The notes under the pieces were generated by a model. The model searched no databases. It saw only the letters and a program-made list of their open reading frames with translations, and was not told the origin of the DNA. A stretch of DNA of 40,366 nucleotides from Planctomycetia bacterium (GTDB lineage: Bacteria; Planctomycetota; Planctomycetia; Pirellulales; UBA1268). Shown here one piece after another: positions 5,408 to 12,353 of the stretch. The stretch spans positions 1 through 40,366 of the forward strand of contig JAIOPD010000052.1 of NCBI GenBank assembly GCA_021414115.1. The letters run 5' to 3'. The translations under genes were made by a program, and so were the position numbers. Position 1 is the stretch's first letter, and each line of letters opens with the position of its first letter.

Positions 5408-5911
5408 TCAGTTCTTGGGCAGGATCACGGCGTCGATGACGTGAATCACGCCGTTCTTCGACGTGATGTCGGTCTTCACGACCTTGGCGCCATCGAGGAA
5501 AACCGTGCCGTCCTTGACGGCGATCGCGACCATCTTGCCGTTCACCGTCTTGGCTTCCTTCAGCGTCACGACGTCCTTGGCCTTCACGTTGCCCGGCACG
5601 ACGTGGTAGGTGAGGATTTCGACGAGCTTCGACTTGTTCTCCGGCTTCAGCAGGCTCTCAAGGGTGCCCGCGGGCAGTTTGGCAAATGCCTCGTCCGTCG
5701 GGGCGAAGACGGTGAACGGCCCGGGGCCGGACAGCGTCTCCACGAGGCCGGCGGCCTTCACGGCTGCAACGAGGGTCTTGAAGGATTCATTGGCGGCGGC
5801 ATTTTCCACCACCGTCTTGTCACACGTGCCGCATCCGGCATCGGCAATCCGCACCATGCCACCAAACACCATCGCGAGCGTTGCGACGCACACGAACATG
5901 CGAGACTTCAT
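5408..5911 (-). CDS. Secreted fasciclin (FAS1) domain protein
   Basis: This 167-residue protein has a signal peptide ([18 protein letters not shown], cleavage after IADA) followed by GCGTCDKTV and one complete FAS1 domain. Hallmarks are [17 protein letters not shown] (the H1 box), ILTYHVVPG (the YH motif) and the closing [13 protein letters not shown] (the H2 box). FAS1 domains mediate adhesion or matrix interactions; single-domain secreted forms are common in bacteria and their ligands are mostly unknown. ATG 5911 is chosen because the signal peptide starts exactly there; in-frame sequence further upstream is not protein-like. The CGTC pair just after the cleavage site could form a disulfide. 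It is monocistronic and ends at the shared terminator. Confidence 0.9.
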
Positions 5912-6457
5912 AAGATTCAAGCCTTTTCTCAGTGCCACCCCGGAGGGCAGCGGTTCAGAGACCTTGGTGACAGGCGGGGTTGCCCAGCACCTCGGCGGCA
6001 TCATAGCCGATCGGCTCGGAAGAGACTTCTCGCAGGCGGCTGGCGGGTTCACGCTCGGCCGGATTCCGTAGGGTGCAACTCCGCGGCTGTTTGCGACCGC
6101 ATTCCCACGGCTCACGCAGCCGGGCTTTGACGGCGGTCGCCCGCGTGGTCCGCCGCATCAAAGCCCCGGCCGAAAGCGACGGCAATGCGGGCAGCGTCAC
6201 CCGACCCATCTTGCCTTGCCCCCTTATCGGGGCACCCTCCGGCCCCTCACCGCCGTGGTGAGGCCATCACTCCCTGAGTTGCATACCCGGGTGACCTCAC
6301 CGCGGGCCACCGTCATGGAACCGCTTTTCTTCCGATAAAAACGCGTCCTCTTCGGATTCCTGCGGCTTCGGCACGAGATTCGCACCGCAATCGTGGGTCG
6401 GCGGACGCGCCGGCGGCTTGCGATCGGACATGTCCCCCAAAATCAGGAGTTCGCTTC
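5912..6457. other. Intergenic region without a recognised gene
   Basis: These 546 bases lie between the divergent fasciclin and PEP-CTERM genes and should hold both promoters. Short inverted repeats are present (CCCCTTATCGGGG near 6220; GTGAGG and CCTCAC pairs at about 6246-6300). I could not match them to a known riboswitch. An AGGAG at about 6446-6450 serves the gene at 6458. Confidence 0.5.
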
Positions 6458-7150
6458 ATGCACACTTTCGCCTCCCCCCCCACCCGGCGAGCCCTCGCCC
6501 TCGCGGCGCTCGCGATCAGCTGCGGCCTGTCGGCCACCGTCGCCCGCTGTGGAACGCTCGTGTCGAGCACCAGCTCGCAGGGATTCCTCAGCCTCGCGGG
6601 CGTGCTCGTCGATGGCACGTCCAACGGCAACATCAACACGGGCACCTCGTTCGACGTGCAAACCCTGGTGACGACGCAGGCTGGCAGCGGCTACTTCGCC
6701 TTCTCCGGTACGGCTTCTCCACAGCTCTTCAGCAACGTCGCGTTCAACACCTCGGCCCCGGTGCAGGGCCTCCTGTTCGGCAATGCCGACTTCGGCACGT
6801 TCAGCCTGCAGTCGCTCGTCGAGGAATCATCCGGCTCCGGGTTCCGCAGTTTCCTGATCACGGGCGACTTCGTCGGCGGCACGCTGGGCGGCCCGGTGAC
6901 TCCAAGCCCGGCCCCGGCGGAGTTCCGGATCAGCTTCACCCAATCGGGCGGCGAGGGCTCAACGATCTCGTCAAGCGCCACGATGACGTTCGTCGCGGTT
7001 CCCGAACCATCCATGCTGGCACTGCTGGGCCTCGGCGGAACTGCCTTCACCCTGCGCATCGCCCGACGGCGACGGCCGGTGGCCTCGCTCACCAACGCGC
7101 CTCGACGCCGAGATTGGCACCGTGGAGGAACAGGCCGCCGTTGTCGTTGA
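6458..7150 (+). CDS. PEP-CTERM sorting domain protein
   Basis: This exported 230-residue protein has a signal peptide (ALALAALAISCGLSA), a beta-rich body of about 140 residues full of Ser, Thr, Gly and Phe, and a C-terminal PEP-CTERM signal: VPEPSMLALLGLGG, a hydrophobic stretch and then IARRRR. Such tails are recognised by an exosortase (EpsH/XrtA type) and are linked to surface or exopolysaccharide delivery; no exosortase is in this window. The body is homologous to the N-terminal domain of the protein at 8472 (shared NTGT/HTAT, GSGFR.F, PSPAPA/PNPAPA and RISFTQS). The reading frame runs about 25 residues past the basic cluster and overlaps the convergent BBP7 gene by 62 bases. An AGGAG Shine-Dalgarno precedes the start. 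Confidence 0.85.
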   Translation: MHTFASPPTRRALALAALAISCGLSATVARCGTLVSSTSSQGFLSLAGVLVDGTSNGNINTGTSFDVQTLVTTQAGSGYFAFSGTASPQLFSNVAFNTSAPVQGLLFGNADFGTFSLQSLVEESSGSGFRSFLITGDFVGGTLGGPVTPSPAPAEFRISFTQSGGEGSTISSSATMTFVAVPEPSMLALLGLGGTAFTLRIARRRRPVASLTNAPRRRDWHRGGTGRRCR

Positions 7151-8213
7151 TTCCGGTGCCGGCCGTCGTGGCCGTGCTGAAATCCCACTGCGTCGGCGCC
7201 ATCGCCGCGTTCGTCAGCCAGTAGACGTTGTATCCCGCCCGCACACCCCAGACATCGGTCAGGCGATAGATGAGCGTGCCGTTGAGGCCGCCGATGAAGC
7301 CCACGCCACCGGTCTGTGTCGAGGTCCCAGGCCGCTCCGGACCTGAAATCGAGCCGGCGATCGGATCCTGGGCCTGGTAGGCCGACGTGCCGCAGACGGC
7401 GGCCTTCCACCAGCCCTCGGCCGCCCAGCGGGACCACTCCCGCCGCCCCCACATCCCGACCTGCGGACCGAAGTAGTTGGTGCTCGTCCGCACGGAGTAG
7501 GTGCTCGGCTCCGGGGGATCGCAGCACTCGGCCGTGAGGGCCGCCTGCTGGTCGAGGCCTGCCCAGAGGAAGCCGGTGAGGAACCGCACGCAGTGGCAGT
7601 TGGGCTTGCAGTTCGTGAGTGGGCACCGGGTCGGCCCGCACTCCTGACAGCAGTCGTAGCAGAAGACGTTGAACTCGGCCATGTTGAGGGTCGCCCACGA
7701 GGTGGCGCGAACCGCGTCGGCGTTGTTGAAGTTGTTGACGGCCTGACCAAGGTCCGGGGGCAGATTGAGGTTTCCGGCCCCCGTCACGCCGGCGCTGCCG
7801 AACATGCCATACACACCCGTGTAGCCGATCTCCCAGCCCCAGGTGTCGGTGATGAGGTTGCCGTAGAACACCCGGGCACCAGTGGCGACCGCGGGCGTCA
7901 AGTCCTTCGTGGTCATCAGCGGACTGCCAGCGTCGTCGAACACGAGCGGCCGATCCCCCGCGTTCGGGCAGGCCTGCAGGAAGAGCACGTCGAAGATCGC
8001 GTAGTTCGTCCAAGACGGGCAGCAGCAGCACCGCAGGGCCCGCATGCAGGCATCGTCGTCGGAGGCTGCCGGCTCGAGGACCTGCGTCGCATCCTCAAAA
8101 TCCACGGGCAGAATCCGCTCCTCGGCGGAGACCGACCGGCCGAGCGCCGCGCAGGCCAGGATCAAAGTCGCCCCCGCCACACCGACCAGCCTCAAACCGT
8201 TTCCGCGCAACAT
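7089..8213 (-). CDS. BBP7-family planctomycete outer-membrane beta-barrel protein
   Basis: This 374-residue protein has a signal peptide (VGVAGATLILACAALGRSVSA) and alternating beta strands. It is rich in cysteine (MRALRCCCC, CYDCCQECGPTRCP, CKPNCHC), and its C-terminus, FLHGANLGVEARW, is typical of BBP7 barrels with a terminal aromatic residue for outer-membrane insertion. BBP7 is a planctomycete-specific porin-like family of largely unknown cargo. Unusually many Cys pairs cluster at residues ~60-70 and ~165-205, suggesting disulfides or a metal site. It is flanked by two genes whose products share a domain; its 3' end overlaps the PEP-CTERM gene on the opposite strand. The start ATG 8213 gives a complete signal peptide. 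Confidence 0.8.
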   Translation of the reverse strand: MLRGNGLRLVGVAGATLILACAALGRSVSAEERILPVDFEDATQVLEPAASDDDACMRALRCCCCPSWTNYAIFDVLFLQACPNAGDRPLVFDDAGSPLMTTKDLTPAVATGARVFYGNLITDTWGWEIGYTGVYGMFGSAGVTGAGNLNLPPDLGQAVNNFNNADAVRATSWATLNMAEFNVFCYDCCQECGPTRCPLTNCKPNCHCVRFLTGFLWAGLDQQAALTAECCDPPEPSTYSVRTSTNYFGPQVGMWGRREWSRWAAEGWWKAAVCGTSAYQAQDPIAGSISGPERPGTSTQTGGVGFIGGLNGTLIYRLTDVWGVRAGYNVYWLTNAAMAPTQWDFSTATTAGTGINDNGGLFLHGANLGVEARW

Positions 8214-8471
8214 ACCGCCGCCCCCCCCGAAAATCCGCGCCGACCGTTCCCCTCAGCACACACCGGAAAATCGGCCGGCGAAAGGAGCCGGCATCACCGG
8301 ATTCCTCGGCAAAATCGGGAGCCCCCCCCTTGGAGCCGACCATATGATCCGGTCCTACCGGTTGGGTAACCTGTGAAGGCAGGGGCTCACACGCCGTAGG
8401 GCTGATTTCGAAGCCATACTTCAACCGGGTGCCTCGATCCCTATTTCTCGACCGCGGAGCAGCGTCCTTCC

Positions 8472-9989
8472 ATGCAGACGATTCTTTCCCGGCTGTTCGA
8501 TCGATCCGGACCCCGTGCCGGCGACCGCCGCCCGCTGCGCCGTCGCCCGGTCGGTCCGAGCCTCGGTGCCGAGTTTCTCGAGTCGCGACTGCCCCTCGCG
8601 GTCACCACCGGCACTGCGGGCTTCGGCGACCTGGGCGTGACCACCGTCTCCCCGGGCACGAGCATCCACACCGCCACGACTTTCTCGCTGGGCAGCATGA
8701 TCACGGCCGGCGTTCCGACGGGCTATTTTGCGTCGCTCCCTTTCCAGTTCTTCGGCGCCGAGAGCTTCGACTCCACGGTCGGCACCAGCCTGTCGTTCGC
8801 GACGGCGGCATTCGGTTCGTTTCAGTCGAGTTCGATCACGACCGTGACGAACGTGCCCGGCTCGGGCTTTCGCGACTTCTACGTCGTCGGCTCCTACACG
8901 CCGGGGACGTTCAACCCTGCGCCGCTGGTGCCGAATCCCGCGCCGGCGAGCCTCCGGATTTCGTTCACCCAGTCACCCGCGAACACCGGCACCATCTCCG
9001 TCAGCATCACGATGAAGCTCCCGCCGGAGCGGCCGGAATTTCTCGTCGCCGCCGACGATCTCGGCTGCACGAGCACGCCGCGGGTGTACGTGATCAATCC
9101 CTACAACGGCGAGGTCGTCAGCAGCTTCACCGCTTATGAGCCGGGATTCCGCGGCGGTGTGCGGGTGGCGATCGGCGACCTCGACGGCGACCCGACCACG
9201 CAGGAGATCGTCACCGGCCCGGGCCCCGGCCGCGCGGGTGAAGTCCGCGCGTTCCAGATCAACAGCACGGGCGCGTTGATCGGGCAACTCCCCGGCTTCA
9301 CGACGACGCCGTTCCCAGGATCCACCCGCGGCCTCGAAGTCGCCGTCGGCGACCTCGACGGCGACGGCAAGGACGACCTTGTGGCCGCTGAATCCCGCGG
9401 CCCGGGGCGAGTGAGCGCGCAGAAGAGCACCGGCACCGTTTTCACCCCCTGGAAGTCGTTCACCGCCTTCGGCGGCACCTACACCGGCGGGGCGAGCGTG
9501 GCAGTCGCAGGCACGAACCGGATCGTCGTCGGCAGCGGGCTCGGCATGGCTCCGACCGTGAAGGTCTACGACGTCGCCGCCGCCCCCGCGGTCGTCTCCC
9601 AGTTCGCGCCTGCAGTGCCCACGGGCACTGGCGGCGTGTCGGTCACGGCCCAGCGGTTCACGAGCTCCTCGGCGGTCAACGTGATGGTGGCCGGAGGCGC
9701 CAACGCGAAATCGGCCATCGGCGTCTATCCGTCCACGGGCGGAACGGCGACGAAGACCTACAACAATTTTGCCTCGCGGCCCAAGGCGAACTCGCCGGTC
9801 TACGCCGCCGCCACGGCACTCGCGGGCGGCCTCGTCGACACGGTCTTCCAGTCGCAAGGCACCGGGGGTGTCGGCGGCATTCTCAAGGTGAACTCCACCA
9901 CCGGGGCGGTCGATACGAGCTTCGCGCCGCAGTACAACGGCAAACTGCTCGCCGGCCCGCTGCGGATCGCGACCCGCGGCCCGCGGTGA
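8472..9989 (+). CDS. LEPR-xLL / FG-GAP repeat exported protein
   Basis: This 505-residue protein starts with an arginine-rich N-terminus ending in FLESRLPLAV, a variant of the planctomycete LEPR-xLL export or anchoring signal. It is followed by a domain (about residues 45-190) homologous to the body of the PEP-CTERM protein at 6458. From about 195 to 500 it has FG-GAP/VCBS-like blades, for example VRVAIGDLDGDPTTQEIV and LEVAVGDLDGDGKDDLVAAE, whose DxDGDG loops normally bind calcium in a beta-propeller. A surface or extracellular location is inferred. Start ATG 8472 immediately opens the basic leader. It is transcribed divergently from the BBP7 gene and lies just upstream of the metal ATPase, with no sign of cotranslation. 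Confidence 0.8.
   Translation: MQTILSRLFDRSGPRAGDRRPLRRRPVGPSLGAEFLESRLPLAVTTGTAGFGDLGVTTVSPGTSIHTATTFSLGSMITAGVPTGYFASLPFQFFGAESFDSTVGTSLSFATAAFGSFQSSSITTVTNVPGSGFRDFYVVGSYTPGTFNPAPLVPNPAPASLRISFTQSPANTGTISVSITMKLPPERPEFLVAADDLGCTSTPRVYVINPYNGEVVSSFTAYEPGFRGGVRVAIGDLDGDPTTQEIVTGPGPGRAGEVRAFQINSTGALIGQLPGFTTTPFPGSTRGLEVAVGDLDGDGKDDLVAAESRGPGRVSAQKSTGTVFTPWKSFTAFGGTYTGGASVAVAGTNRIVVGSGLGMAPTVKVYDVAAAPAVVSQFAPAVPTGTGGVSVTAQRFTSSSAVNVMVAGGANAKSAIGVYPSTGGTATKTYNNFASRPKANSPVYAAATALAGGLVDTVFQSQGTGGVGGILKVNSTTGAVDTSFAPQYNGKLLAGPLRIATRGPR

Positions 9990-10046: not shown

Positions 10047-12353
<2,307 letters not shown>

Follow-up and report, generated by a model that had tools for sequence, protein, structure and literature searches.

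Three adjacent genes in the window, that is, the whole stretch of 40,366 nucleotides of planctomycete DNA analysed here, may constitute a modular cassette for surface proteins, whose BBP7 barrel would serve a propeller-tailed exoprotein carrying an exchangeable passenger, the same passenger being also delivered by exosortase sorting (a reading given a probability of about 0.4). The trio is composed of a PEP-CTERM protein (P0001), an outer-membrane barrel (P0003) and a protein joining an LExR-type leader to an FG-GAP propeller (P0002), the first and the last of which share a domain of about 140 residues (Table 1). Two features had been missed by the initial annotation of this DNA: a second genus has conserved the trio, and across the window's family there is a specific association of its barrel with the propeller module.

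Table 1. Features of the three-gene locus (positions in the window)
Feature	Position	Strand	Basis or remark
P0001, 230-aa PEP-CTERM protein	6458..7150	+	PF07589 and TIGR02595 both above cut-off
P0001 signal peptide	about residues 1-31	+	by eye
Shared domain, P0001 copy	6557..6997	+	BLASTP/alignment; AlphaFold2 pLDDT 87.6, all-beta
P0001 PEP-CTERM motif, hydrophobic stretch and basic tail	6995..7069, residues 180-204	+	Pfam
3'-end overlap of the P0001 and P0003 genes, 62 bp	7089..7150
P0003, 374-aa BBP7-type outer-membrane beta-barrel protein, diverged	7089..8213	-
Divergent intergenic region, barrel gene to P0002	8214..8471		not conserved between the two genera
P0002, 505-aa protein with LExR-type leader, shared domain and FG-GAP propeller	8472..9989	+
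P0002 basic leader ending LESRLPLA (LExR-type)	8472..8600	+	sequence, by eye
Shared domain, P0002 copy	8601..9029	+	AlphaFold2 pLDDT 94.4, pTM 0.87
P0002 FG-GAP propeller module	9042..9971	+	Pfam; widespread C-terminal part of LExR proteins

A domain shared by two proteins with different sorting signals

The initial annotation had proposed that a single undescribed domain is present in both the PEP-CTERM and the LExR/FG-GAP protein, and this was borne out, with the two open reading frames lying where it had placed them. BLASTP aligns P0001 and P0002 over 171 positions with 37% identity (E=7e-18), and their Smith-Waterman score of 201 compares with a mean of 44 (sd 8, maximum 80) among 2000 shuffles, corresponding to Z=20. 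Chance or low-complexity similarity is ruled out by this value together with profile matches at E<1e-40, the profile searches suggested in that annotation having returned strong cross matches between the copies. No described relative was found: 17 members of the family gave nothing beyond PEP-CTERM-type noise against Pfam and NCBIfam, with no choice-of-anchor model matched, and the domain had no match among PDB sequences and no relative in a viral collection.

The distribution of the domain is sparse. P0001 and P0002 hold the only copies above noise in the window's genome, and the A2 profile, built from the first copies, matched relatives in 2 of the 392 genomes sampled across the phylum and in 7 of the 72 belonging to the window's family, half of the congeners' genomes being devoid of any copy. 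A contig search added copies in Umea_bin-02666 and Tautonia sociabilis; a match in G036 (L020) was rejected as a false positive, there being no related open frame. In the wider alignment (A3), obtained by adding fifteen further copies, every one of these (15/15) ends in a PEP-CTERM tail recognisable by eye. Copies also occur in tandem, with two in Tautonia (L080) and six in Umea_bin-02666 (L079, contig 53, 3726-10858), the latter being PEP-CTERM paralogues arranged on one strand.

The point where the domain of P0002 ends, at PPE, is where the congeners' copies enter their PEP motif (PPEAVPEPS). As all 15 other copies finish in a PEP-CTERM tail, P0002 has the look of a propeller protein that has incorporated a PEP-CTERM ectodomain. 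A very recent local duplication from P0001 to P0002 is not supported, for the P0002 domain is 50-54% identical to the congeners' PEP-CTERM copies and just 37-38% to P0001. A poorly resolved tree of the domain places it beside the PEP-CTERM copies of the congeners (bootstrap 77), apart from its counterparts in two genomes from a second genus, G486 and G568, which are described below. Such placement is compatible with either gene conversion or separate capture, the tree being too weak to date the entry of the domain.

AlphaFold2 models of both copies, built on one common alignment of 14 sequences, are all-beta, with about nine strands in that of P0002 and pTM values of 0.87 (P0002) and 0.83 (P0001). 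Unrelated folds, which the initial annotation had named as counting against its proposal, were thus not predicted, though the agreement of the two models is not independent because a single alignment underlies both. Foldseek returned nothing at E<0.001 (best E=0.08). The top structural alignments, whose lists overlap for the two models, were to small up-and-down beta barrels with Z of 7.2 and 6.9; since these matches lie in the chance range, the fold is called here only meander beta-barrel-like, with no proven relative.

The proteins that carry the domain

P0001 has the order signal peptide (assigned by eye), shared domain and PEP-CTERM tail. The tail scores 23.6 bits with PF07589 (Pfam cut-off 20.7) and 21.5 with TIGR02595 (NCBIfam cut-off 16), and a single exosortase is encoded in the window's genome (PF09721, E=2.3e-47). 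The P0001 frame continues for about 20 further residues inside the 3'-terminal part of the barrel gene, and the stops of the corresponding PEP-CTERM and barrel genes in G486 and G568 are about 5-7 bp apart, as against the 62-bp overlap of the window.

The FG-GAP repeats of P0002 also pass the Pfam cut-offs (36.8 versus 26.9 bits for PF13517, and 28 versus 22.1 for PF01839), so that the repeats, like the PEP-CTERM motif of P0001, had been correctly recognised in the initial annotation. Its claim of a LEPR-type leader stands as regards the motif, which is visible by eye as LESRLPLA and recurs in 17 propeller proteins of the window's family; as regards a family assignment, the leaders of P0002 and its G486 and G568 orthologues matched no NCBIfam model even at E<=10.

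The propeller half of P0002 is present in 20 of the 22 genomes of the genus. It may directly follow the leader, with no passenger (L034, L058), or be preceded by long repeats in proteins reaching about 3200 residues, the parts ahead of it comprising DUF11 repeats (L126), calx-beta/Ig-like domains (by eye) or the shared domain. The propeller is thus a separate, widespread module with varied N-terminal parts, meaning that leader-passenger-propeller is a standing architecture of which the shared domain is one passenger. One propeller-bearing LExR protein beside a BBP7 gene (L107:7436-9448, in G022) carries an FKBP-type peptidyl-prolyl isomerase domain at its end (residues 567-667, NCBIfam E=2e-25), and about a dozen further propeller proteins bear tails of 113-144 residues at the C-terminus, a size similar to that of the FKBP-type tail.

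The barrel and its association with propeller genes

BBP7 (PF07585) designates putative beta-barrel porins of planctomycetes, to which Pfam assigns no function. P0003 itself has no Pfam match at E<=1 and is absent from the BBP7 matches of the window's genome. In an alignment of 15 members of its family, all 14 other than P0003 match PF07585 (best E=4.9e-13); they share 37-69% of their residues with P0003, and those at 65-69% are among the matching proteins. The description of the gene between the two domain carriers as a BBP7 barrel consequently holds at the homology level, with the score of P0003 itself below detection. A cysteine-rich stretch, CMRALRCCCCPSW, is found at the start of the barrel (about residues 56-68) and is kept as MRRCCGNRCCPSW in G486.

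The association of such barrels with propellers was assessed in a sample of the order by comparing the positions of propeller and barrel-profile matches. Within the window's family, 28 of the 42 propeller matches lie within 4 kb of a barrel-profile match, for an expectation of 0.32 (P about 5e-44), and the linked genes are mostly less than 500 bp apart and convergent. More pairs are hidden from this count by contig breaks and very long genes, as in G022, where the barrel has for its divergent neighbour a giant LExR protein whose propeller lies at the end away from the barrel. Five further families of the order also showed pairing: outside the window's family, and leaving out many short repeat matches of G041, 6 of 23 propeller matches fall within 2 kb of a barrel match (0.14 expected), partly in other orientations. 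Moreover, the trees of 37 neighbouring barrel-propeller pairs match (Mantel r=0.63), a correlation reached by none of 2000 free shuffles and none of 5000 shuffles within genomes. Tandem arrays of convergent propeller-barrel pairs occur at L131 and L126/L134; among their LExR proteins are some of about 3200 residues in which DUF11 repeats are numerous. As seen by eye, a separate BBP7 subgroup (L113, L114, L115, L116) is located among response-regulator and chemotaxis-like genes, with no propeller neighbour.

A literature search returned no BBP7-propeller association, an absence that is weak evidence since subscription papers were mostly outside its coverage. The barrel-propeller pairing is apparently undescribed and would then be more novel than the domain.

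Conservation and apparent rearrangement of the trio

In G486, a genome from another genus of the same family, a 527-residue frame with leader, domain and propeller adjoins a BBP7 gene, beyond which a PEP-CTERM copy of the domain is encoded. The same arrangement of PEP-CTERM copy, BBP7 barrel and LExR-domain-propeller protein exists in G568, which belongs to the same genus as G486. The whole trio is therefore present in all three genomes found to encode an LExR-domain-propeller protein (those two and the window's), and an accident of one genome is ruled out. Between the window and G486, identity is 60% for P0002, 62% for the barrel and 42% for the PEP-CTERM protein, and cross-genus comparison of the region between the barrel gene and P0002 revealed no conserved control region. 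The dN/dS values obtained between G486 and G568 (0.20 for the PEP-CTERM gene, 0.14 for the LExR gene and 0.12 for the barrel) indicate that all three genes are maintained by purifying selection. The genes flanking the trio are common to G486 and G568 and differ in the window, where, as judged by eye, its neighbours resemble a FAS1-domain secreted protein (5408-6115, minus strand) and a heavy-metal P-type ATPase (10047-12353, plus strand).

The trio barrels fall in one clade with the barrels that accompany giant LExR proteins (SH 1.0; bootstrap 100 when G022 is included). The trio propellers do not group with those of the giants (AU p=0.0001), meaning that barrel and propeller of the trio are not a co-inherited pair. 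In addition, the usual place of the propeller gene, at the 3' end of the barrel gene, is taken by the PEP-CTERM gene, with the propeller gene being divergent; the trio thus appears rearranged from the standard pair, and looks like a partner switch.

Proposed working of the locus and alternative explanations

In the proposed cassette, the LExR-type leader of P0002 would direct its export, and its C-terminal propeller would keep it at the cell surface by working with the neighbouring BBP7 outer-membrane barrel, whose gene is of the type usually paired with this family of propellers. P0001 would be exported by its normal signal peptide and then processed by exosortase, providing the domain with a second route to the surface or extracellular matrix. 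The shared domain could act as a ligand- or partner-binding module on barrel-anchored and on sorted, matrix-associated proteins, possibly bridging them. The occurrence of the domain on both proteins, the same trio in G486 and G568 with its low dN/dS values, the propeller-BBP7 linkage with matching trees, the variety of passengers and the exosortase gene count in favour of this proposal. It is opposed by the convergent orientation of most linked pairs, which are hence not co-transcribed (the window pair is divergent), by the fact that co-duplication also yields matching trees, by the AU result, by a leader lacking a family model and by the lack of the domain in half of the congeners. A bolder version, in which barrels of the P0003 subfamily would be dedicated outer-membrane partners (anchors or translocators) of propeller-tailed LExR exoproteins in a planctomycete display system with interchangeable passengers, the trio's passenger being deliberately repeated on an exosortase substrate for display of the domain at two sites, is held to be possible but less likely than not.

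The most serious rival, and a live one, is that linked genes were duplicated together with no physical contact between their products. The propeller-barrel unit would in that case spread as a block by duplication and transfer, the domain of a PEP-CTERM paralogue having been shuffled into one copy, and the two copies of the domain would serve no common function. The tandem arrays of pairs, the frequent tandem copies of the domain and the matching trees, which co-duplication would produce, all agree with such a history, as do the different genes around the window's trio, suggesting that the block moved or its surroundings changed. On the other hand, pairing in other families of the order and partly in other orientations suggests that the neighbourhood has been selected and not only inherited, and the three genes are under purifying selection and together in every genome found with the LExR-domain-propeller protein. 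Shared history with no further meaning is thus held to be a substantial possibility, well short of even odds. That the locus is an ordinary PEP-CTERM family with one domain-shuffled member, a plain choice-of-anchor case beside an incidental barrel, would fit the PEP-CTERM nature of every other copy and the frequency of differently anchored proteins with a common domain, sufficient for named NCBI families. This explanation is already weakened by the conservation of the trio in two genera and by the strong association of the barrel's family with propeller genes, and is judged improbable. Slightly less credit still is given to the barrel being an export pore for propeller-tailed LExR proteins in a two-partner secretion route: the gene pairing, the matching trees and the size of the exoproteins (which reach about 3200 residues and bear the propeller at the C-terminus or close to it) speak for it. 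Against it, the barrel region is short, at about 310-320 residues, and Pfam searches matched neither POTRA nor any other domain of a translocator.

Comparison with known systems

P0003 resembles the BBP7 family in being 61-69% identical to matching proteins and departs from it in its own undetectable score. With two-partner secretion (type Vb) the locus has in common that the gene for an outer-membrane barrel adjoins that of a large exoprotein. It differs in the barrel of about 310 residues, in the conserved part of the exoprotein, which is a C-terminal propeller instead of an N-terminal TPS domain, and in the mostly convergent genes; neither hallmark, POTRA translocator or TPS domain, was matched in Pfam. 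To our knowledge, no system for the display of very large planctomycete LExR proteins has been described, and the strong, repeated gene pairing with matching trees offers a testable proposal both for BBP7 function and for such display.

PEP-CTERM/exosortase sorting is represented in P0001 by the PEP motif, hydrophobic stretch and basic tail, and in the genome by the exosortase; exosortase cleavage and placement at the surface or in the matrix are themselves proposals for PEP-CTERM proteins generally, whose ectodomains are typically highly diverse (Haft et al. 2006, PMC1569441). P0002 departs from this system by carrying such an ectodomain with no PEP-CTERM tail, the domain stopping where the tail of the congeners' copies starts.

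One extracellular domain on differently anchored proteins is a known pattern, embodied in the named choice-of-anchor families of NCBIfam, of which choice-of-anchor A is an example whose domains in Acanthamoeba cyst walls are lectins (PMC6541295). The shared domain is a new family of this type, here combined with a PEP-CTERM tail or with an LExR leader and propeller. Unlike the known families, none of whose models matched its 17 members, it is found in two differently tagged copies encoded together around a barrel gene. Because one locus puts this domain both on an exosortase substrate and on a propeller protein, it amounts to a natural experiment in which the two routes can be contrasted for an identical cargo.
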